IMG/VR virus record: IMGVR_UViG_3300037493_003257
Location: 1 to 41,220 of that record
Source of the DNA: a virus
Length of the DNA: 41,220 bases
Reading direction: 5' to 3' (one strand)
In this document: one piece after another, positions 20,642-35,792 of the stretch
Position numbering within the stretch: position 1 is the stretch's first letter
Layout of the letters: each line of letters starts with the position of its first letter
Notes under the pieces: generated by a model
The model's input: the letters and a program-made list of their open reading frames with translations, nothing else
Told to the model about the DNA's origin: nothing
Databases searched by the model: none
Program-made: the position numbers and the translations under genes

Positions 20642-20805
20642 AGTTCAATCTCATGATTGCCAGACGCGGAATGAAGATGTGGGCGCGCCGGCACGAGTGG
20701 CCGTTCCGCATCGTGTGGAAACGGCAGTCGCTGCGCGATCTGGCGCCGCGCCGTCGGCAGTTGCAGCACCGGATGCGCGAGTGGCGCAAGCTGGAGCACG
20801 CATGA
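20638..20805 (+). CDS. Small basic protein (55 aa)
   Basis: 55 residues from ATG 20638 (overlap) to TGA 20803-20805. It is very Arg/Trp-rich (RRGMKMWARRHEWPFRIVWK), with later DLAPRRRQLQHRMREWRKLE, probably helical. The basic charge would fit nucleic-acid binding; this is inference. It is coupled to the HNH gene by ATGA. Confidence 0.45.
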   Translation: MKFNLMIARRGMKMWARRHEWPFRIVWKRQSLRDLAPRRRQLQHRMREWRKLEHA

Positions 20806-21644
20806 ACGGGCGCCGCATTGCCTACTCGGCCGACGAGCTGCTGTTCGTCTGTGCACGGCGCGAGCTGCCGCGCGCGGAGCTCCACCGGGAGTTCGTGGCG
20901 CGCTTCGGGCGGCACGATGTCGAGGTGCGGCACCTTAAGGCGCTCTGCACGCGCAACGGGTGGACCACGGCCCGCGCGGCCTTCACGACGGCCGACGACG
21001 CCGTGTTGCGCGAGCGGTTTGCGGACACCACGTCGGCGGAGATCGCGGCAGACATGGGACGCAGCTACGGCAGCGTGGTGGCTCGGGCCAAGTTCGTCGG
21101 GCTTAGCAAAAGCGACGCGTTCCGCGCGAGCCGCGCGTCCGGCCGGCTCCAGCCCGGGGATAGGATCGGCGCCGCGACGGCGTTCCAGCGAGGGCACGCG
21201 CCCAAGAACAAAGGCGTGAAGCGTCCGGAAGGGTGGTCACCTGGACGCATGCGCGAGACGCAATTCGGCAACGGCCGGCCGGCGTGGAACCACAAGCCGA
21301 TTGGCAGCGTGCGCGTGATCAACGGCTACGAGTTCACGAAGGTGACCAACGAGGCCAACGTCGCGTGGACGACCAACTGGCGGCAGACGCATGTGATCAA
21401 CTGGGAAGCCCTGCACGGGCCGGTCCCTGCGGGCCATTGCCTGAAATGCGCGGACGGCAACCTTCGCAACACGGCGCCGACGAACTGGCATGTGATCCCG
21501 CGCAACCTGCTGCCACGGCTCAACGGCAGCCGTGGCACGCGGCTCCGGTACGACGAGGCGCCGGCGGAGCTCAAGCCGATTCTCTTGACCACGGCCAAGC
21601 TCGCGCACGCCGTGAAGGCGCGCAGCAAACAGGCGGCCTCATGA
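20802..21644 (+). CDS. HNH endonuclease with Myb-like domain
   Basis: 280 residues from ATG 20802 (ATGA). The N-terminal part has Myb/SANT-like helices (TADDAVLRERFADTTSAEIA, MGRSYGSVVARAKFVGLSK). A basic linker has FQRGHAPKNKGVKRPEGW and ETQFGNGRPAWNHKPIG. The C-terminal HNH fold shows TNWRQTHVINWEALHGPVPA, then GHCLKCADGNLRNTAPTNWH. This resembles the phage HNH type with histidine in RHxxW and GHxxxxxDGN. Homing or host-DNA cleavage are both possible. Confidence in the nuclease fold is good; its biological role is not visible. Confidence 0.7.
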   Translation: MNGRRIAYSADELLFVCARRELPRAELHREFVARFGRHDVEVRHLKALCTRNGWTTARAAFTTADDAVLRERFADTTSAEIAADMGRSYGSVVARAKFVGLSKSDAFRASRASGRLQPGDRIGAATAFQRGHAPKNKGVKRPEGWSPGRMRETQFGNGRPAWNHKPIGSVRVINGYEFTKVTNEANVAWTTNWRQTHVINWEALHGPVPAGHCLKCADGNLRNTAPTNWHVIPRNLLPRLNGSRGTRLRYDEAPAELKPILLTTAKLAHAVKARSKQAAS

Positions 21645-23836: not shown

Positions 23837-24233
23837 ACAGGAACAGATCGACGCCGTCTTTGCGGAGCTTGACATTGCGTTTCCACTTCGCAACGAAATC
23901 ACTATCGCAAAGGCGCTCGTCGAGGCCCGCGTGACTCTTGCCGCTGCTGCGAAGAGAGCGGATGCGGCGGAAGCACTCCGCGATGTGTGGGAGCTGAGGG
24001 CGCGGAAGGTGGTGCAGGAGCGGCGAACGTTGCGGGTTGAACGCGATGCGCTGCGGAAGGATGCGGCGCGGTATCGGTGGCTCCGAAGTCGGGACGTTGG
24101 CCCGTCGGGAATATGGGAGCTGTATGCAGGCGAAGCGTATCCATTGCACATGACGCTGAAATGCGAGATTGCGCTTGACGAAGCCATCGACGCCGCGATG
24201 GCGGTGCAGCCAACAACGGGAGGAGCAAAGTGA
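23823..24233 (+). CDS. Coiled-coil early protein, paralogue 3 of 3
   Basis: 136 residues from ATG 23823 (overlap). LVEARVTLAAAAKRADAAEA and a long helix (LRARKVVQERRTLRVERDAL) lead to RKDAARYRWLRSRDVGPSGI. That block resembles a common phage motif in which RYRWLR precedes a short variable segment and a final helix, here LDEAIDAAMAVQPTTGGAK. It shares its start (MSKPTQEQ against MSEPTLQD) and end with paralogue 2. It is coupled to the Ala-rich coil gene by GTGA. No function is known to me. Confidence 0.6.
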   Translation: MSKPTQEQIDAVFAELDIAFPLRNEITIAKALVEARVTLAAAAKRADAAEALRDVWELRARKVVQERRTLRVERDALRKDAARYRWLRSRDVGPSGIWELYAGEAYPLHMTLKCEIALDEAIDAAMAVQPTTGGAK

Positions 24234-24991
24234 TCACTACAGAGCAAGAGGCAGCAATCCGTGACACGCTGGCGACGATGCCGCACCTCGCCGTGGGCGT
24301 GGGCACCGCTGAACAAGCGTGTAGCATTGCCGCATTAAACCTCGCACTCACGGGCACACTGACCGACGACGTGCCCGACTGCATGAGTCTTGTGATCGGA
24401 CGCTGGATCATCTCCGTGCAAGATCGGATGCCAGCGACGATCCGCGACAGTGCCGAGTGGCGTGAATTGCTGGTGCTGGCGGCTGGCACGGGACGCGAAC
24501 ACGAAGAAGCACGCATCGCGCTAGTGCTGGCGTGGATGTGGGACGCGCTCGCGGTGGTGCAGCCGCGAGCCGACGCCGATGGGTACGGCGAGGCGTGGGC
24601 GACGATGCTGCGTGAGCGGACAGCGAAGGCAGCCACAGCCGCAGACGCAGCCGCACGCGCAGTCTCATCCGCACACGCAGCCGCATACGCACACGCAGAA
24701 GCCTCAGCCACAGCCGCAGCCGCACGCGCAGCCTCAGCCGCAGACGCAGCCGCAGACGCAGCAGCCTCAGCCGCAGACGCAGCCGCAGACGCAGCAGCCT
24801 CAGCCGCATACGCAGCAGCATACGCAGCAGCCTCAGCCGCATACGCAGCAGCCTCAGCCGCATACGCAGCAGCCGGATACGCAGCCGCATGGCAGGCAAT
24901 CGACCCCGTGGGCTGCTTGCGTCGACTGGTGGCGGTGACGTTCGACGAAGCGGTCACGACTGCGCTCGACCTTGCCGAGGCGGCCAAGTGA
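24230..24991 (+). CDS. Early protein with hendecad/heptad alanine coil
   Basis: 253 residues from GTG 24230 with GGGAGGAG upstream. Residues 1-115 are a mixed helical domain (PHLAVGVGTAEQACSIAALN, MSLVIGRWIISVQDRMP). Residues about 130-220 are Ala-rich; from 169 to 215 they follow S-AAD-AAAD-AAA twice, S-AAY-AAAY-AAA, then S-AAY-AAA twice, that is three 11-residue and two 7-residue units. This 3-4-4 then 3-4 spacing suits a right-handed then ordinary coiled coil. A helical C-terminal segment follows (CLRRLVAVTFDEAVTTALDL). Similar Ala-coil proteins exist in phages; function is unknown. Confidence 0.6.
   Translation: MITTEQEAAIRDTLATMPHLAVGVGTAEQACSIAALNLALTGTLTDDVPDCMSLVIGRWIISVQDRMPATIRDSAEWRELLVLAAGTGREHEEARIALVLAWMWDALAVVQPRADADGYGEAWATMLRERTAKAATAADAAARAVSSAHAAAYAHAEASATAAAARAASAADAAADAAASAADAAADAAASAAYAAAYAAASAAYAAASAAYAAAGYAAAWQAIDPVGCLRRLVAVTFDEAVTTALDLAEAAK
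24734..24874. repeat. 33/33/33/21/21-bp tandem repeat in the Ala coil
   Basis: Units start with TCAGCCGCA. Units 1 and 2 (24734-24766, 24767-24799) are identical 33-mers, unit 3 (24800-24832) is a 33-bp variant, and units 4 and 5 (24833-24853, 24854-24874) are identical 21-mers. The 12-bp difference keeps the frame and changes an 11-residue to a 7-residue unit. Slippage during replication is the simplest origin. Confidence 0.85.
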
Positions 24992-27626: not shown

Positions 27627-27805
27627 GCGGCTCGCGGATCCGGATTTGGAATCGTCAGACCCGGTGGCTAGGGTTCATGGTCGGTGTTGATGCCACCGAC
27701 GCAGGTTCTGTGGACGATCAACGCCCCGGAGTCTCCGTGCCCACGGCGCAAGCGGTGGGGCATCACGCGGAGGCTCGGGGCGTTTTTTGTGGGGACAGGG
27801 GATGA
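27623..27805 (+). CDS. Uncertain small ORF spanning hairpin region (60 aa)
   Basis: The frame runs from GTG 27623 (GTGA overlap with paralogue 3) to TGA 27803-27805, which overlaps the HNH start at 27802. The product is SGSRIRIWNRQTRWLGFMVG followed by low-complexity sequence ending VFCGDRG. A terminator-like hairpin with six T residues lies inside it, so coding and termination compete here. The junction overlaps favour a gene; the hairpins favour a non-coding regulatory region. Confidence 0.3.
   Translation: MSGSRIRIWNRQTRWLGFMVGVDATDAGSVDDQRPGVSVPTAQAVGHHAEARGVFCGDRG
27680..27700 (+). other. Perfect 7-bp hairpin upstream of the terminator
   Basis: GTCGGTG (27680-27686) and CACCGAC (27694-27700) form a perfect stem with a 7-base loop. 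It lies 20 bp before the larger hairpin at 27721-27788. The pair could be an attenuator or RNA-binding site. Function is inferred only. Confidence 0.5.
27721..27788 (+). terminator. Rho-independent terminator or attenuator with long hairpin
   Basis: ACGCCCCGGAGTCTCCG (27721-27737) pairs almost completely with CGGAGGCTCGGGGCGT (27768-27783), one bulge and one wobble apart, around a loop with its own partial GTGCCCAC/GTGGGGCA pairing. Six T residues follow (27783-27788). It separates the winged-helix genes from the HNH/helicase genes and could end or attenuate that transcript. Confidence 0.65.
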
Positions 27806-28248
27806 TGACGCGAGACGGTGGAGAGACGGCGCAGGGCGATCCGGTGACGAGGGTGGCGTCGGTTGCGCGATTGATTGAGCGGATGGAGCGCGTCAGTAAG
27901 GGGCTCCGCGCCATGACGATGGGCAGCAAGGGGACCAACCTGAGTGTGCCGCGCGCCGTGTTGGAGCACCACAGCAGCGCCGTGGATGGCGTGTTGGCCG
28001 ACTTGCGCGGCCTCGATGGCGCGACGCCGGAGCGAAAGGTCACGGCGCGAGACCGTCATGCCGTGTTGCTCGCGGCGTGGGATGCCGGCCGTGGCGGCTG
28101 GTGGTGCGCGAAATGCGCCGCCCATGTGACGGAGCGGTCGGGTGTCCATGTGGACCATGTGGTGCCGTTGGCACGAGGCGGGAGCAATGGGCGCGACAAC
28201 CTGCAAATCCTGTGCGCCGCCTGCAACTTGGCTAAGGGGGCCGCATGA
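27802..28248 (+). CDS. HNH endonuclease (148 aa)
   Basis: 148 residues from ATG 27802 (a second ATG follows at once). The C-terminal half is a classical HNH domain: WWCAKCAAHV, VHVDHVVPLARGGSNGRDNL and LCAACNLAKG, with two CxxC pairs and catalytic-type HVDHVVPLARGG, N of GRDNL. The N-terminal half is helical and basic. HNH enzymes nick or cut DNA; this type is frequent in phages as free-standing nucleases. It lies before the helicase gene cluster, coupled by ATGA to the next gene. Confidence 0.8.
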   Translation: MMTRDGGETAQGDPVTRVASVARLIERMERVSKGLRAMTMGSKGTNLSVPRAVLEHHSSAVDGVLADLRGLDGATPERKVTARDRHAVLLAAWDAGRGGWWCAKCAAHVTERSGVHVDHVVPLARGGSNGRDNLQILCAACNLAKGAA

Positions 28249-28763: not shown

Positions 28764-29212
28764 CGGCCACGACCGCGCGCCGGAGCGTGCCGGCTTGGAT
28801 CGACGACGCGCAGCACGCGTTGACCGAGTGGGCCGACGGGCGCGCCGCGGCGCTCTCCGTGGACACGTTGCGGGCGCTGGTGGCGACGCCGCAGCGGCCG
28901 ATCCGCTCGGCAACCGACCGACATACTTACTGGAGCGAGACGTATGAGCGCATGATGAAAGAGCAGCTGCGGGACGGCGTGCCGCTGGACGGCGGCGCTG
29001 ACGTGGTGGACGCGTGGCGCGCCCGACAGGATGCGCGGCAGTCGGCCATGGATGACGTGCTCGACGCGCACGCCGAGTGCCTTGTGGCGTCGGCCTCGTT
29101 GGCGGTGGGGACGGGCGGCGACCGAGGGGCAGGACCGGCACGCCGGCGGCCGTCCAAGCGGCGCCGCACGTCGGCGGATGCCTATTTGGCGTCGATCGGG
29201 GGTGACGCATGA
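28760..29212 (+). CDS. Hypothetical protein before the helicase (150 aa)
   Basis: 150 residues from ATG 28760 (ATGA overlap). It is helical, with WIDDAQHALTEWADGRAAAL, HTYWSETYERMMKEQLRDGV and a basic tail (GPARRRPSKRRRTSADAYLA). The basic C-terminus suggests nucleic-acid contact. It is coupled to the helicase gene by ATGA, so it may be a helicase accessory or loader. That role is inference; there is no loader motif. Confidence 0.45.
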   Translation: MTATTARRSVPAWIDDAQHALTEWADGRAAALSVDTLRALVATPQRPIRSATDRHTYWSETYERMMKEQLRDGVPLDGGADVVDAWRARQDARQSAMDDVLDAHAECLVASASLAVGTGGDRGAGPARRRPSKRRRTSADAYLASIGGDA

Positions 29213-30600
29213 GCGTGCGACCGGCGTTGGCGCGCACGACCTACACGTTCACCGACACCGGCAACGCGCGGCGCCTCGTGGACACGCACGGGCGGGACTT
29301 GCGGTGGGTGGCGCGTTGGAAGGCTTGGTACGTGTTTGACGGGCGCCGATGGGCCCGCGACGAGACGGGGGAAGTCGAGCGGCGCGCCAAGTCGGTGGTG
29401 ACTGACATGTTCGAGCACGCCCTGACGCTCGACGGCGAAAAGCGGTCGGCCCTCCTGTCGCACGCCCTGCGGTCTGAGGCGGCGGGGCGGCTTGAGGCCA
29501 TGGTCAAGCTAGCGCGATCGGAGCCGGGGGTGGCCATCAGTCACAGCATGCTCGACGAGCAGCCATGGGTGCTGACCTGCCGCAATGGAACGATTGACCT
29601 CCGGACGGGCAAGTTGGGCCCGCACAACCGGAGCGATTTGTCCACCAAGATGACGAATATTGATTACGACCCGGACGCCCTCTGTCCGACGTGGATTAAG
29701 ACGCTTCGGGTCTTGTTCGCGGGCGACCAAAGCTTGATCGACTACGTGCAACGGGCGATCGGGTATAGTCTGACCGGCGACACACGCGAGCAGGTGCTCC
29801 ATTTGTGCTATGGGACCGGCGCCAACGGCAAGAGCACGATGCTCGACGTGTTGGCCCAGCTGAGCGACGAGTACGGCATGCAGGCCGACTTCCAGACGTT
29901 CCTCGACGCCGGCAACCGCTCTGGGCCTCGCAACGATGTGGCGCGGCTCGCCGGCGCAAGGCTCGTGCGATCGTCTGAGGTCGGCGAAAACAAAAAGCTC
30001 AACGAGGGGCTGATTAAGTCGTTGACCGGCGGCGACATCGTGTCGGCGCGGTTTTTATATTCGGAGGACTTCGAGTTTAAGCCGCAGTTTAAGCTCTGGC
30101 TCGCGGCGAACCACAAGCCGGTGATCCGTGGCACCGATTACGCCATCTGGCGCCGCATGCGGCTGATCCCCTTTGAGGTCACCATCAGCCAGGAGCAACG
30201 CGACGAAACGCTCCCGGCGACGCTCCGCGCCGAGCTGCCGGGGATTCTGGCGTGGGCGGTGTCCGGCTGCGTGCAATGGCTCGCCGGCGGGCTCCGGCCG
30301 CCTGAAGTGGTACTGGCGGCAACCGATGCCTACCGCCACGAGTCGGACACCATCGGCGCTTTCTTGGATGAAGAGTGCGAAATCGGGGCGGGCTTCGAGA
30401 TGTCGGCCGGCCTGTTATACCAGGCGTATACGCGATGGGCAAAGGACAACGGCGAATATGCCATTACCGCCACGGCGTTCGGGCGTCGGCTGTCTGAGCG
30501 GGGGCATGCGGTCATCAAGCGGGCAGGGCTCAAGTTCCGCGAAGGGCTGCGGGTGGCCAATGAGCGGGCTGGGCGGCCGGATTGGCGTGATGACGGCTGA
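29209..30600 (+). CDS. SF3 helicase of D5/P4-primase family
   Basis: 463 residues from ATG 29209 (ATGA). Residues about 60-190 look like the D5_N domain; Walker A is GTGANGKST (about 202-210). The SF3 C-terminal motifs follow: EVGENKKLNEGLIKSLTGGD, then FKLWLAANHKPVIRGTDYAI and WRRMRLIPFEVTI. This is the helicase half of phage/plasmid replication initiators. No archaeo-eukaryotic or TOPRIM primase domain is visible at the N-terminus, and no DNA polymerase gene was found, so host polymerase and a primer source are needed. It lies immediately before the candidate origin (30601-30833). Confidence 0.85.
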   Translation: MSVRPALARTTYTFTDTGNARRLVDTHGRDLRWVARWKAWYVFDGRRWARDETGEVERRAKSVVTDMFEHALTLDGEKRSALLSHALRSEAAGRLEAMVKLARSEPGVAISHSMLDEQPWVLTCRNGTIDLRTGKLGPHNRSDLSTKMTNIDYDPDALCPTWIKTLRVLFAGDQSLIDYVQRAIGYSLTGDTREQVLHLCYGTGANGKSTMLDVLAQLSDEYGMQADFQTFLDAGNRSGPRNDVARLAGARLVRSSEVGENKKLNEGLIKSLTGGDIVSARFLYSEDFEFKPQFKLWLAANHKPVIRGTDYAIWRRMRLIPFEVTISQEQRDETLPATLRAELPGILAWAVSGCVQWLAGGLRPPEVVLAATDAYRHESDTIGAFLDEECEIGAGFEMSAGLLYQAYTRWAKDNGEYAITATAFGRRLSERGHAVIKRAGLKFREGLRVANERAGRPDWRDDG

Positions 30601-30625
30601 CGGGCGGCGCTGTGGGCAGATGGGT

Positions 30626-30726
30626 AGGACGGTTAGGACGGTTAGGACGGTCCTCCTTACTCGTTAATTACTACACACATATGTGGGGGTTTTATGTATA
30701 ACTATCCTAACTGTCCCAACTGTCCT
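30626..30726. other. Iteron palindrome, candidate replication origin
   Basis: Three tandem 9-mers AGGACGGTT/AGGACGGTT/AGGACGGTC (30626-30652) face three reverse-oriented 9-mers, AACTATCCT/AACTGTCCC/AACTGTCCT (30700-30726). The consensus is AGGACRGTT in each arm. The 47-bp core has 17 G+C (36%) in a much richer genome and contains a perfect 10-bp palindrome CACATATGTG (30676-30685) near the centre. The region lies directly after the SF3 helicase gene, whose relatives bind short iterons at their origins. Alternatives are packaging-protein sites or an RNA hairpin (G-to-A changes keep G-U pairing). Confidence 0.65.
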
Positions 30727-30747
30727 GAAAAAAGAAAAAAACAGGAC

Positions 30748-30783
30748 GTAATAAAAACCGGCGGCGTAGTAAAAACCGGCGGC
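30748..30783. repeat. 18-bp tandem repeat in the origin region
   Basis: GTAATAAAAACCGGCGGC (30748-30765) and GTAGTAAAAACCGGCGGC (30766-30783) differ by one base. A partial third unit (GTATTAAA) follows. They extend the structured gap between helicase and RusA and may be further protein-binding sites. Confidence 0.75.
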
Positions 30784-30797
30784 GTATTAAACCACCG

Positions 30798-30818
30798 CCG
30801 TGCTGTGCACGGGCTTTT
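30798..30818 (+). terminator. Short hairpin with T-run before rusA
   Basis: CCGTGC (30798-30803), loop TGT, GCACGG (30807-30812), then GC and four T residues. It sits 15 bp before the RusA start and may terminate early transcription from the helicase side. The T-run is short, so efficiency is doubtful. Confidence 0.45.
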
Positions 30819-30833
30819 GTGTGAGCTGGCAGG

Positions 30834-31358
30834 ATGACAAAGACGGCGCGTACACGACCCGCTGACGGCGCGATGACGGGCGGGAAGGGGCAAGGGAAGG
30901 GCGCGGCAACAAAGCGCGTCAGATCGCCACGGAGCGCCCCACGGCCCGATCCGCTGACATGGGCACGGGCGACGGCGGACCCATTACCGAGCGGCGGGTG
31001 GCGGTTCACGATGCCGGTGGTGACCTCGGCCAACCGGACGTGGCGCATGGGGAAGGGGCGGACGTACAAGGGGGGCAAGGCGACGGCCGATACCAAGGCC
31101 GCGGCGACGGCGTTTTGCCGGATGGTGCCGATGGGGGGAGAGCTCGCGGTGTCCATCGTCTGGTATCGCGCGCAACGGTCTGGGGATGTGGATAATCGCA
31201 TCAAGGGCACGCTCGACCTGCTCCGGGGAATTGCCTACGCCGACGACGCGAGCGTGGCGCGGGTGAGCTGCGAGCGGGTGGACGACGGGAGTCCGGCGCG
31301 ATTGGTGGTGGATGTGCAGCCGGCTGGGATTCGAGCGTGTCAGACTTTTTCAACATAG
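30834..31358 (+). CDS. RusA-like Holliday junction resolvase
   Basis: 174 residues from ATG 30834. RusA-family enzymes resolve four-way junctions during phage replication and recombination. Core motifs: FTMPVVTSANRTWRMGKGRT, then GDVDNRIKGTLDLLRGIAYA and DDASVARVSCE, with the conserved DxDN and later paired Asp residues that hold metal. The basic N-terminal extension of about 55 residues is longer than usual for this family, so a later start is possible (ATG 30873). It lies downstream of the helicase and the candidate origin. Confidence 0.8.
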   Translation: MTKTARTRPADGAMTGGKGQGKGAATKRVRSPRSAPRPDPLTWARATADPLPSGGWRFTMPVVTSANRTWRMGKGRTYKGGKATADTKAAATAFCRMVPMGGELAVSIVWYRAQRSGDVDNRIKGTLDLLRGIAYADDASVARVSCERVDDGSPARLVVDVQPAGIRACQTFST

Positions 31359-31367
31359 GGGGGGGGG

Positions 31368-32132
31368 ATGGCGCAGCTAGTCATTGCAGGACTCGAAGGG
31401 GTGAAGGTGTCGCTAGAGCAGCTCGGGGACGACGCGCCGGCGGCGGTGCGGATCGCCACCACCATGATCGGGGAGCGGGCACAACGGGCGATGCGGCAGA
31501 AGATCGGGGAGCGGTTCAGCTTCCGCGGCACGTTGGGCGGGTTCCAGCGGGCGGTGGTGTTCGTGGCGCCGAAGAACACGGCCAAGCGCAAGGTGGTGGC
31601 CTTGCTGAAGGTGGGGAGCAGCCAAGGCGGCACCAAGGCGACCGCGACCCGCAACCTTGGCGTGCTACTGGCGCGGCATGAGGAGGCCGAGACGCGAACG
31701 GAATCCGGCCAGGTGTACTTCAACGGGCGCGGAAAAGCGATGACGGGGCTTGGTTTCTTCCTGCCCGCCAAGGGTTTGCGGACCTCAACGACCAACGTGC
31801 CGAGGTCGATGTACCCCTCCAGTATTGGTGCGGCTCTGCGGATGACGCCGACAACGCTGACGCTCGCGAAGGGCACGAAGAAAGGCAGCAAGAAGAAGGG
31901 CACGGGACGCAGCTACTTCGCCACGCGCCAAGGCATCTTCGAGCGTCGTCACACGGCGTTCGGTCGGGCCGACGTGAAGGCGATCTGGTGGTTCGTTCCA
32001 CGAGTTCGGACCCCGGCACGCCTTGGCCTCTGGCAGACGGCGCAGGAGATCTTCGACCGCTATGCGAAGGCGTATGCGATGGACGCCATCGACACGGTGA
32101 TCGAGCGCACGTCACCGAAGGGGTTGCGGTGA
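31368..32132 (+). CDS. Putative minor structural protein (tail completion-like), far from the tail genes
   Basis: 254 residues from ATG 31368, with a G-rich Shine-Dalgarno directly upstream. It has a helical N-terminus (EGVKVSLEQLGDDAPAAVRI), basic loops (TKATATRNLGVLLARHEEAE), a GTKKGSKKKGTGRSYFATRQ segment and an end helix (AQEIFDRYAKAYAMDAIDTV). The end helix and basic loops resemble HK97 gp10/minor tail Z-type proteins, which join tail to head. It is placed between RusA and an HNH gene, upstream of terminase, which is unusual for a tail part. Assignment is tentative. Confidence 0.4.
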   Translation: MAQLVIAGLEGVKVSLEQLGDDAPAAVRIATTMIGERAQRAMRQKIGERFSFRGTLGGFQRAVVFVAPKNTAKRKVVALLKVGSSQGGTKATATRNLGVLLARHEEAETRTESGQVYFNGRGKAMTGLGFFLPAKGLRTSTTNVPRSMYPSSIGAALRMTPTTLTLAKGTKKGSKKKGTGRSYFATRQGIFERRHTAFGRADVKAIWWFVPRVRTPARLGLWQTAQEIFDRYAKAYAMDAIDTVIERTSPKGLR

Positions 32133-32135
32133 GAG

Positions 32136-32144
32136 TTATCCACA
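32136..32144 (+). promoter_or_regulatory. DnaA box 1 (TTATCCACA)
   Basis: This is a perfect 9-bp DnaA consensus, directly after the stop at 32132. A second identical box lies at 32158-32166, 22 bp on (about two helical turns) in the same orientation. It lies in the 80-bp gap before the HNH gene at 32213. It may recruit host DnaA for replication or regulate transcription. Confidence 0.65.
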
Positions 32145-32157
32145 CGGTGGACGATAG

Positions 32158-32166
32158 TTATCCACA
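32158..32166 (+). promoter_or_regulatory. DnaA box 2 (TTATCCACA)
   Basis: This box is identical to 32136-32144, same strand. The surrounding bases also match in part (AGTTATCCACA then C/T and GGTG), so the repeat extends to about 16 bp. Confidence 0.65.
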
Positions 32167-32212
32167 TGGTGAACGACGGAAAGTCTCAAGGTACTTCCCG
32201 GAGGGGGGCCCG

Positions 32213-33370
32213 ATGCGGATTCCCGCGGACGTCCCCAATCGCCCAGAGAATGATTTTCCATTATCGGTTGCACTTGCTCCTGATTCGGTCGAAAAGATTG
32301 AGGCATTTATTGCAACCAAGGCAAGGGAGAGAGGCAAGCTGGCAAATTCGCAGAAAAAGGAGATTCTTGAGCGGTTCTGTCGCGGCGAGAAAGTTGAGGT
32401 AATTGCCGGATCGTTCGGCATTCACCCGTTGACCATTTACAGATTTTCTAGAACAGCGGGGGTATCCCGCCCCCGCCGACTGCGACGGAAGGCGCCTCGC
32501 ACTTGGCAGGACAAGGCCAAAGAGCAGTACGAGAACGGTGTGCCGTGCGCCGTAATCGCCGATAGCCTCGGTCTGGCCACGGCAACGATAGAGCAGCAGT
32601 CGTACACGGAAAACTGGCAGCGCAAGCAAGCGCTCTGCTCAGACTGCGGGGCGGCCGTGCCGCTCGGCATCGCGGCGAACCGCGCCGTGCGCCGGGTGTG
32701 CGAACCGTGCCGGAAGGAGCGAAAGAAGACGAACCTATGTCGCACCAAAGAAGCTAGGCGCGCTGCCCGTGAACGCTTCACGCTACGGCACAAGGGACGG
32801 AAGCTCATCACGAAAGAAGACCGAGAGGCGCAAGGCAGGCAGCGCGAAGCGGAACGCCGCGCGCGTCCGTTTGTACAGCTAGGTCGGTTTCGCCACTACG
32901 GGGAGCAGCCGACGACGCGCGAAGGCGCGCTGGCCGTTCTTCAGGCAACCATGAGCAGATTGCTGGACGTACGGTGCGCCGAACAGGGCGTGTGCCGCGA
33001 GACGGTCGAATACAACAGCCGGTATAGGAGCGACGACCTTTTCCGCGCCAAGGAGAAAGCCAAGGCTGTTCGCAACCGCGCGCGGCGGGAGCAAATGCCA
33101 GACGATGGCACCCTGACCTCAGGTGTGGTCCGCGATCTCTTCGCCGCGGCCAAGTGCTGCGCCTACTGCGATAAGCCGATCAGCGGCAAGGATAAGACCC
33201 TCGACCATATGCATCCCGTGTCCCGTGGTGGGCTCCACAGCATCCACAACGCCGTGATTTGCTGCTACTCCTGCAACTCAAGGAAGCGCGATATCCCGTT
33301 TGACCAATGGCTAAGGCGCATTAAGTCGGACATTGCGTCTCGCTTTCACAAGACCGAGCGTGCCGCATGA
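32213..33370 (+). CDS. HNH endonuclease with tandem HTH and Cys-rich linker, next to terminase
   Basis: 385 residues from ATG 32213, chosen for the strong GGAGGGGGG about 5 bases upstream; GTG 32129 would add 28 residues over the DnaA boxes. Two HTH segments are visible (KKEILERFCRGEKVEVIAGS, KAKEQYENGVPCAVIADSLG), then CxxC pairs (CSDC, CEPC), a basic linker, and a C-terminal HNH: CCAYCDKPI, LDHMHPVSRGGLHSIHNAVI, CCYSCNSRKRD. HNH proteins near terminase genes help cos cleavage in HK97-type phages, which fits this place. Its first 250 bp are less G+C-rich than the flanks, hinting at acquisition. Homing is the alternative. Confidence 0.75.
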   Translation: MRIPADVPNRPENDFPLSVALAPDSVEKIEAFIATKARERGKLANSQKKEILERFCRGEKVEVIAGSFGIHPLTIYRFSRTAGVSRPRRLRRKAPRTWQDKAKEQYENGVPCAVIADSLGLATATIEQQSYTENWQRKQALCSDCGAAVPLGIAANRAVRRVCEPCRKERKKTNLCRTKEARRAARERFTLRHKGRKLITKEDREAQGRQREAERRARPFVQLGRFRHYGEQPTTREGALAVLQATMSRLLDVRCAEQGVCRETVEYNSRYRSDDLFRAKEKAKAVRNRARREQMPDDGTLTSGVVRDLFAAAKCCAYCDKPISGKDKTLDHMHPVSRGGLHSIHNAVICCYSCNSRKRDIPFDQWLRRIKSDIASRFHKTERAA

Positions 33371-33858
33371 GCGACCGCTGGATCTCCCTCAACCAGTTGG
33401 CCGACGAGACCGGCCTCGCGGTGCGGACGCTGCAATACATCCGCGCGCAGGAGCCCAGCGTCCTGACGACGCGCCAGCGGAAGGCGCTGGAGTACAAGCA
33501 GCCCGACTGCGCCATCGCCCTGAGAAAGCGCGAGGCCGAAAAGGCCATCGCCGACGCCAATCCCGGCGACCTCGACACGGCGCGGACCCGCAAAGCCAAC
33601 GCCGAAGCGGAGCTGGCCGAGATCGAGGTGGCCAAGGCGCGGGGCGAAGTGGTAAGCGTGGCCGACTACGAGGCGGCGCTGGCCCGCGTGTTGGACCGGC
33701 TGACGGCGCGGCTGCGGGCCATGCCGGTGCGCCTGGCGCATCTCGGGACCGAGGCCGAACTGGCGGCCGAAACGGAAGCCGAGCGCATCGTGGTCGAGCT
33801 CGCGGCGTTTGACGAGGATGTGATCGACGAACCGGAACCGATCAAGGGGGCTGCATGA
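33367..33858 (+). CDS. Terminase small subunit (Nu1-like)
   Basis: 163 residues from ATG 33367. It has an N-terminal winged-helix-type DNA-binding segment (ISLNQLADETGLAVRTLQYI), a basic helical centre (LRKREAEKAIADANPGDLDT) and a long charged helix (TRKANAEAELAEIEVAKARG), with an acidic C-terminus (EDVIDEPEPIKGAA). The layout and position before a GpA-type large subunit support lambda Nu1-like function: recognising the packaging site and recruiting the motor. The preceding HNH gene is overlapped by ATGA. Confidence 0.75.
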   Translation: MSDRWISLNQLADETGLAVRTLQYIRAQEPSVLTTRQRKALEYKQPDCAIALRKREAEKAIADANPGDLDTARTRKANAEAELAEIEVAKARGEVVSVADYEAALARVLDRLTARLRAMPVRLAHLGTEAELAAETEAERIVVELAAFDEDVIDEPEPIKGAA

Positions 33859-35792
33859 CGCACGCCCTCGGCCGCGAGGCCCTCAACCGCGTGACGCGCG
33901 AACGGTTCCGCCGGCACTGTCGCCCCCTGCCCCGACTGTCGATGAGCCAGTGGGCCGAGAAATACCGCGTGCTCAGTCCCGAGGCGACGGCCAATCATGG
34001 CCCGTGGCTCAATGCCATGGTGCCGTACCTGCCGACCATCATGGACGTGGTGAGCGACCGGACGACGCAGGAGATCGTGGTGGTGAGCCCCAGCCAAGCC
34101 GCGAAAACGGAACTGATCTTGAACGCCATCGGCTATTTCACGCACCAAGAACCAAGCCCGATGCTCTGCGTGCAGCCGACCGTCGAGACCGCGGAGTCGT
34201 TCAGCAAGGACCGCGTGGCGCCGATGATCCGCGACTGCGGCGCCCTCGCCGCTCTGGTCGCGCCAGCCCGATCACGCGAGAGCAACAACACCATCCTGAG
34301 TAAGGCGTATCCCGGCGGCCAGCTCGACATGACCGGCGCCAACGCTCCGAGCGGCTTGGCGATGCGCCCGAAGCGGGTCGTCCTGCTCGACGAACGGGAC
34401 CGCCACCCGCGATCGGCCGGCACCGAGGGCGACGTGAAAGCGATCTCGCGGGCGCGCACGCGGTCGTTTCAGCGGCGCCGGAAGATTGTGGAAGTGTCCA
34501 GCCCGACGAGCGCCGAGGAGTCGCTCATCTGGCCGTCGTACTTGGAAGGAACACAGGAGGTCTACGAGGTGCCCTGCCCCGACTGCGGACACTTCCAGAC
34601 GCTGCACTTCGACCGGCTCAAGTGGGCCATCGACGCGGCCGGCAAGGTGGACCCGTCGTCCGTGGCGTACCAGTGCGCGGCGTGCGAGCACCTCATGCCA
34701 GCGCGTGAAAAAGGGGCGCTGCTTCGCGCTGGCCAGTGGACACAGACCGCCGAGCCCCGGGTGCCGCACAAACGGTCGTTCCATATTCACGGGCTGGTGG
34801 CGGCGTTCGCGCTCTGGGAGGAAGTGGCGCAGGAGTTTGTGACCGCAAACGGACAGCGCGATCCCGCAATGCGGGCCGAAATGCTCAGGGCGTTCTTCAA
34901 CACCACGTTGGGCGAGCTCTATCGGGACCAAACGGCGGAGACGGTCAAGTCTACCCTCCTCGCGCGCGCCAAGCGGTACGACAGCGCCGACGACATCGCC
35001 CCGATCACGTGGCACGTCCCGCGCGAGGCGGGCATCATCACGGCCGGCGTGGACCTTCAGCACGACCGCGGCGAGATCGTGGTCCGCGCGTGGGGCGTCG
35101 GGGAAACGTCGTGGCTGGTGGAGCGGGCCATCCTGCGCGGCGACACGAGCCAACCGGAATGGTGGGCACGGCTGGAGGACTACCGGACGCAACGCCGCTG
35201 GACACACGAAAGCGGGGCGCTCATGGCGATTCGGTCGCTCACCATCGACGCCGGCGACGGCACGCACTCCAAACAGGTCTACACGTACTGCGCGCCACGG
35301 CTTGCGTTTCACGTGTACGCCATCAAGGGGTCGAGCAATCCCACGGCGCCCATGGTGCCGTCCAAACCGACCAAGGTGAAGCCTGGGCGGCTCTACATCC
35401 TCGGGGTGCACGCCATCATGGACCGGCTGTACCGGCGCCTCGCGATGGACGAAGCGGGGCCGGGGTATCTGTACCTGAACCAGCACGCCGACGACGACTA
35501 CCTCACACAGCTCCTGTCCATGCGGCGGCGCGTGGACGAAAAGACGCGGAAACGGAAGTGGGAAGCGACGCCAGGCGTGCGCAACGAGGTGGCCGACTGC
35601 GAGGGCTACGCCTACGCCGCGCTCCTGCTTGGTCCGGTGCCGGTCGCGTCGCTGTCGTCCGAAGTGGATCGCGTGAACGCCGAGGGCACGGGGGGCAAGG
35701 CGGCGCCGCTCAAGGTGCCAACGCCCCCACCACCAGCCCCAGCCCCACGACCCGCCGGCACGTGGATTCCGCGCCGCAAGGGGTGGCGGTAA
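33855..35792 (+). CDS. Terminase large subunit (GpA family)
   Basis: 645 residues from ATG 33855 (ATGA overlap). This is the ATP-driven packaging motor and nuclease. The N-terminus is typical of the GpA family (LSMSQWAEKYRVLSPEATAN). Motifs: Walker A variant SPSQAAKTE (about 78-86), Walker B VVLLDERDRHP (about 175-185), motif III SSPTS, a CxxC pair (CPDCGH, CAACEH) and the nuclease-like start AGVDLQHDRGEIVVRAWG. DERDRHP differs slightly from the usual DExDxxP spelling, but the acidic pair is kept. The GpA type generally means cos-type packaging. Confidence 0.9.
   Translation: MTHALGREALNRVTRERFRRHCRPLPRLSMSQWAEKYRVLSPEATANHGPWLNAMVPYLPTIMDVVSDRTTQEIVVVSPSQAAKTELILNAIGYFTHQEPSPMLCVQPTVETAESFSKDRVAPMIRDCGALAALVAPARSRESNNTILSKAYPGGQLDMTGANAPSGLAMRPKRVVLLDERDRHPRSAGTEGDVKAISRARTRSFQRRRKIVEVSSPTSAEESLIWPSYLEGTQEVYEVPCPDCGHFQTLHFDRLKWAIDAAGKVDPSSVAYQCAACEHLMPAREKGALLRAGQWTQTAEPRVPHKRSFHIHGLVAAFALWEEVAQEFVTANGQRDPAMRAEMLRAFFNTTLGELYRDQTAETVKSTLLARAKRYDSADDIAPITWHVPREAGIITAGVDLQHDRGEIVVRAWGVGETSWLVERAILRGDTSQPEWWARLEDYRTQRRWTHESGALMAIRSLTIDAGDGTHSKQVYTYCAPRLAFHVYAIKGSSNPTAPMVPSKPTKVKPGRLYILGVHAIMDRLYRRLAMDEAGPGYLYLNQHADDDYLTQLLSMRRRVDEKTRKRKWEATPGVRNEVADCEGYAYAALLLGPVPVASLSSEVDRVNAEGTGGKAAPLKVPTPPPPAPAPRPAGTWIPRRKGWR

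Follow-up and report, generated by a model that had tools for sequence, protein, structure and literature searches.

What is the function of the non-coding gap at positions 30601-30833 of this 41-kb phage genome, directly behind the gene of a D5/P4-type SF3 helicase? The window analysed here (41,220 bp) spans an entire virus record and carries portal, major capsid, capsid-protease, GpA-type terminase and Nu1 genes. The first-pass annotation had noticed three AGGACRGTT units in each orientation around a core of 36% G+C in the gap. It proposed a phage replication origin, with terminase binding sites or an RNA hairpin as alternatives. Both the inverted array and its location behind the helicase gene were borne out. 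The helicase stop codon is at 30600, the first iteron starts at 30626 and the next gene at 30834, i.e. the array is in non-coding DNA directly 3' of the helicase gene, Table 1.

The helicase matches the Pfam families D5_N (4.4e-34) and Pox_D5 (1.5e-5), PHROG primase families down to 1e-134 and, by sequence, the DNA primase 7ola. An AlphaFold2 model (pLDDT 88) has a fold that matches ASFV C962R and MPXV E5/D5 (poxvirus helicases), and it ends in a winged helix with helices at residues 400-413 and 421-430 and wing strands at 435-438 and 441-449. The combination of a D5_N domain with a C-terminal winged helix is that of the initiator class. The primase domain, fused to the helicase in many relatives, is absent from this gene, and no primase match was obtained among the neighbouring and upstream ORFs of the window that were scanned. 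The order helicase, gap and RusA is also found in cluster K mycobacteriophages.

Table 1. Features of the gap and of the genes on its two sides, with positions in the window, strand and remarks.
Feature	Positions	Strand	Remarks
D5/P4-type SF3 helicase gene, 463 aa (D5_N, SF3 ATPase, C-terminal winged helix), proposed initiator	29209-30600	+	Pfam, PHROG, AlphaFold2
Wing codons, residues 433-446 of the helicase	30505-30546	+	Segment covarying with the iterons in relatives; model strands, permutation tests
Left iteron 1	30626-30634	+	AGGACGGTT
Left iteron 2	30635-30643	+	AGGACGGTT
Left iteron 3	30644-30652	+	AGGACGGTC
A+T-rich core, presumed melting site	30653-30699	.	47 bp, 36.2% G+C; holds the palindrome CACATATGTG (30676-30685), not kept in L001
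Right iteron 1	30700-30708	-	AGGATAGTT; + strand letters AACTATCCT
Right iteron 2	30709-30717	-	GGGACAGTT; + strand letters AACTGTCCC
Right iteron 3	30718-30726	-	AGGACAGTT; + strand letters AACTGTCCT
Two 18-bp tandem repeats	30748-30783 (30748-30765, 30766-30783)	+	GTARTAAAAACCGGCGGC; absent in L001, probably accessory
Terminator-like hairpin	30798-30818 (hairpin 30798-30812)	+	CCGTGC-TGT-GCACGG then GCTTTT; in L001 with a loop change (CGTGCTTCGCACGGGCTTT)
RusA-type Holliday junction resolvase gene (flank)	30834-31358	+	Pfam RusA 5.1e-12

Some other genes of the window can be described briefly. Three are HNH endonuclease-like (20679-21644, a weak match, 27787-28248 and 31988-33370), and the last of these also matches helix-turn-helix families. 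The ORF at 24230-24991 contains long alanine-rich repeats (AAAYAA/AAASAA) and has no family match. The best plasmid match of the helicase (52%) is on Gemmatirosa kalamazoonensis plasmid 1 (NZ_CP007129), together with a gap similar to that of the window, a hint that the host of the phage is Gemmatimonadota-like.

The two iteron sets flank the A+T-rich region, as in the origins of D5/P4-type SF3 initiators, and the units are in exact 9-bp tandem register in both arms. Such a 3+3 array was obtained in 0/1000 dinucleotide shuffles of the gap, and no second one exists elsewhere in the window. The tandem score of the gap was reached by 0/1000 shuffles and its inverted-repeat score by 0/300. The single 9-mer, allowing one mismatch, is unremarkable (13 found vs 8.3 expected); the improbable part is the arrangement of the 9-mers and not the single 9-mer. 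A window scan detected no GC-skew switch at the gap, and a search against Rfam returned a chance match only. Among viral contigs, the exact iteron pattern with the first base of each unit fixed as A had no match, and with this base free 11 stretches match, several of which are coding repeats.

The gap had also been described as containing a poly-A stretch, two 18-bp repeats, a hairpin and the palindrome. All of them are present, but not all are conserved. Between diverged flanks, the six iterons and the hairpin are retained in L001, the closest relative (97% helicase identity), which lacks both 18-bp repeats as well as the poly-A stretch and the palindrome. Because of this lack of conservation the three elements were set aside, and they probably lie outside the working core. 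The hairpin 3' of the iterons is most likely the transcription terminator of the helicase gene. Two relatives with 70% identical helicases have the same layout with other iterons, TGACCGATA and TGGGCGATA.

For a family-wide test we collected 160 relatives of the helicase from genome and viral collections, cut out the DNA surrounding the stop codon of each helicase gene and dereplicated the set. An inverted repeat was called significant when it beats all 15 shuffles (chance about 1/16), and three control regions were used. Just 3' of the helicase a significant inverted repeat is present in 75/132 dereplicated relatives, compared with 6/133, 9/123 and 6/115 in the controls. Significant tandem repeats occur in 53/133 vs 6/133, 9/116 and 6/111, and an iteron caller score of at least 10 is reached by 72/131 vs 1/133, 2/120 and 4/113. 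The first unit starts at a median of +3 nt past the helicase stop in the relatives surveyed, and the unit spacing is mostly 9 (114) or 10 (92) bp. Read towards the core, the orientation of the units is conserved, with GTG preferred over CAC in 30 loci vs 8 and TGA over TCA in 34 vs 11. When 127 loci were aligned in register the common form was TG(A/G)(A/C)(G/T)(G/A)GTT, which the AGGACGGTT of the window fits. Whether in a phage, a prophage or a plasmid, the array is kept next to unrelated genes and in genomes with other terminases, for instance in Listeria phage LP-101, where a VRR-NUC gene is downstream.

About a third of the family, mostly members with a gene directly behind the helicase, has no detectable iterons there, and the iteron caller is unsuccessful in a similar share. 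In 44/132 relatives no inverted repeat is significant and the iteron score stays below 12, more commonly where a gene follows at once. Where the gap is 180 nt or longer the inverted repeat is significant in 44/63 loci, as opposed to 12/34 where a gene lies 30 nt away or less. In Microbacterium phage Albright, Vibrio phage 1.160.O and a Kitasatospora plasmid the D5-type helicase is followed at once by an ORF or annotated gene, no clear iterons are seen, and the origins may be elsewhere or work differently.

Individual loci differ in where and how the array is built. At one locus (L027) the left iterons (CTTGAAGGA) lie inside the helicase coding sequence near its 3' end, from 49 to 31 nt before the stop codon, where they are translated as LKD repeats and the 9-bp unit keeps the frame. 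Two others (L162 and L168) have very large symmetric arrays behind the helicase, with CGGACACTT units spaced 12, 43 and 9 bp and repeated as a mirror image. Such arrays suggest more than one ring-loading site per side.

Covariation of the 9-mers with the helicase had been named in the first-pass annotation as a check, and the outcome was positive. Extra close relatives were gathered for three clusters, and the test used 448 pairs within 10 clusters of similar helicases, with permutation within clusters. Iteron similarity tracks the identity of the wing (residues 433-446) with a rho of 0.49, and the partial correlation on all other segments is 0.42 (p=0.001), staying at 0.35 to 0.51 on leaving out any one cluster. 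The ATPase core does not track (rho 0.08, partial -0.08), and the tail behind the wing, located between it and the iterons, gives a partial rho of 0.24 (p=0.007). Among pairs with a core identity of at least 0.93 the median iteron similarity is 0.77 for near-identical wings vs 0.60 for different wings (Mann-Whitney p=1e-5, the pairs not being independent). An example is L163 vs L167, where the rounded core identity is 1.00, the wings are KKKTNQGIMY vs RKKSMGVIVY and the iterons are TGAATAGT vs GGGATAG. Mutual information calculated column by column over all 127 loci was noisy, with single hits in the wing and the recognition helix and no clear regional mean. Because of this noise (misregistered iterons, a gappy wing) the within-cluster pair tests were preferred. 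On the DNA only a short distance separates the wing from the iterons, so that recombination or co-transfer could add to the correlation, an effect that the test reduces and does not remove.

The mycobacteriophages served as an out-of-sample set; only ZoeJ among them had been used in the analyses above. The helicases of LindNT and Tachez are identical at 420/425 positions before the wing and at 5/11 in the wing, and their iterons are AGTACGGGT/AGTACAGAT and GGCACAGAT, respectively. LastHope and Tachez have the same residue at 399/427 positions before the wing and at 11/11 wing positions; the iterons of LastHope are mainly of the GGCACAGAT type. The first 20 nt past the helicase stop are identical in all three phages, so the iterons were not simply swapped together with everything near the wing. 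The start-associated repeats of cluster K (PMC3203893) are excluded as the source of the LindNT iterons, since 8/9 iteron matches in this 60-kb genome are in the helicase-RusA gap, away from these repeats. As judged from these comparisons, the iteron sequence covaries with the helicase wing and not with the ATPase core, which appears to be new. In relatives, the covariation supports the C-terminal domain of the initiator as a candidate reader of the iterons.

The gap is very probably the replication origin of the phage, as had been proposed. This reading is supported by iterons that stay with the helicase across unrelated neighbours, by their covariation with the wing and by their location at the place of known origins. 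Points against it are the 44/132 relatives described above, the negative GC-skew scan at the gap and the negative primase scan of the ORFs. In the mechanism that we propose, the helicase from the gene directly upstream would use its C-terminal winged helix to bind the six iterons of 9 bp. With one array on each side of the A+T-rich core, two rings would assemble head-to-head and melt the core, and bidirectional replication would start; a primase, which the helicase gene does not encode, and the host polymerase would follow. We also lean, by a small degree, towards an evolvable recognition code. Here the wing hairpin would set part of the 9-10 bp iteron within the common form given above, phages would alter wing and iterons together with the rest of the replication machine unchanged, and the code may span from bacterial phages to archaeal plasmids.

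Other functions of the gap have to be weighed against this. According to the stem-loop model (Berkner et al. 2014) it would be a functional RNA or a cruciform hairpin. The arms can pair if G-U is tolerated, the DNA fold has a z of -2.6 and the RNA fold is weakly better than shuffles (z -1.96), and in pRN1 the whole stem-loop region is needed. However, a search for compensatory changes disfavours the hairpin: the arms of the window and L001 do not compensate (unit 2 has A-C in the window and G-T in L001), and both keep AGGACRGTT-type units. The arm spacings can also differ in relatives, as in phage A2 with 12 bp on the left and 8 bp on the right, which fits protein sites and not a stem, and a perfect 9-bp tandem periodicity is needless for a hairpin. 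In SCCmec, moreover, Cch2 binding survives removal of the inverted repeat and is lost without the direct repeats (PMC7581432). On arm compensation and spacing we rejected a hairpin as the main function, and consider it very unlikely.

A cosB-like binding region for the terminase (Nu1) near a packaging site is a shade less probable still. Repeats of such size are typical of terminase sites, and genes for a Nu1-like small terminase (33367-33858) and a GpA-type large terminase (33855-35792) are 2.7 kb downstream of the gap. But the array follows the helicase and not the terminase: it is found behind the helicase in genomes with other terminases and in the terminase-free plasmids pRN1 and pHEN7, and in LindNT the terminase (1.6-3 kb) is 44 kb from the iterons (47.4-47.7 kb). 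Covariation with the helicase wing is a further argument against packaging, and it also counts against an operator array for a phage repressor or activator, in which the helicase would not be the binder. Tandem inverted operators are common and a terminator-like hairpin follows the array, but no promoter-like site was found in the gap, and the position of the array is fixed to the helicase stop across unrelated neighbours. We regard the operator array as the least probable of the three.

What lifts the finding beyond a single origin is the family-wide rule together with the covariation of wing and iterons. The rule can be used to find origins: directly behind a D5-type helicase gene, inverted tandem units of 8-12 bp around an A+T-rich core. 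More than 1000 public phage records contain a relative of the window helicase, and most of those looked at have no annotated origin. LindNT and Tachez are an example of natural pairs that grow on a laboratory strain; with them, the specificity between initiator and iterons becomes directly testable, as do incompatibility of origins and phage resistance based on the origin. A joint change of the iteron "address" and one small helicase loop suggests how phages switch the address read by their replication machinery; if true, the wing code would spare related phages the mutual titration of the initiator.

Several known origins can be compared with the gap. For phage A2 the record lists a rep_origin immediately after the primase gene, in which ACGGGAGGAT units in inverted orientation flank an A+T-rich core. 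The gene family (primase-helicase about 39-40% identical), the place, the inverted short iterons and the core are the same as in the window, but the iterons differ in sequence and have a spacing of 8-12 bp. The record of Sfi21 annotates a 302-bp ori directly behind the primase gene. Here too the gene family, the location and the inverted short iterons around an A+T-rich core agree, whereas the units are of an 8-bp TTAGTTAC type and the helicase gene is from a more distant branch. In P4, crr is directly behind alpha and contains type 1 repeats of either orientation at a spacing of 9 bp, but there is a second ori several kb away, a TOPRIM primase and another order of orientations. A P4-type origin (TOPRIM alpha, split ori/crr) was rejected for the window, where the helicase has no primase domain and the 3+3 array is single. 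For A2, Sfi21 and P4 the origin data come from record annotations and general background.

Iterons located immediately 3' of the respective genes are bound by SaPI Rep and by SCCmec Cch2 (D5_N type) via the C-terminal domain (PMC7581432). These systems share with the window an initiator helicase with a C-terminal DNA-binding domain, an origin directly 3' and, on either side of an A+T-rich stretch, a set of iterons (PMC7581432, PMC6092414). They differ in being satellites or cassettes and in their shorter iterons (AAGTG, 5 nt, in Cch2); the window is a phage of 41 kb that encodes portal, capsid and terminase itself. The window was rejected as a PICI/SaPI satellite, as portal, major capsid and TerL genes are present. 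Two iteron sets flanking an A+T-rich region were described in 2018 as common to PICIs and "no other known bacterial replicon" (PMC6092414). Our survey contradicts this uniqueness; the PICI-like layout is widespread in ordinary phages and plasmids, which appears to be new.

The pRN1 family of Sulfolobus plasmids has an element of about 100 bp directly behind a gene for an AEP-SF3-winged-helix protein. In pRN1 the 100-bp element restores replication together with the replication operon, alongside which it is necessary and sufficient, and the authors described it as having no iteron structure (PMC4234260). We find that the pRN1 arms consist of two 9-bp units, ATGTCCATA GTGTCCAAC (period-9 p=0.001), and those of pHEN7 of GTCACCACT GTCACAACT (p=0.0013); the Rep proteins of the two plasmids are 77% identical, yet their iteron units differ. 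The period is marginal in pRN2 (p=0.054), no clear 9-bp units were found in pDL10, and in BIP-1, for which Berkner cites a stem-loop, an inverted repeat is present but no obvious iterons were seen. The plasmids are archaeal, were published as having a stem-loop without iterons, and their Rep is about 24% identical to the window helicase. The arms of the pRN1 "stem-loop" are 9-bp iterons, which recasts a proven origin as an inverted iteron array and appears to be new. As a predicted initiator-origin pair, the window helicase and its gap join the known pairs of SaPI/PICI, SCCmec Cch2, A2 and pRN1.
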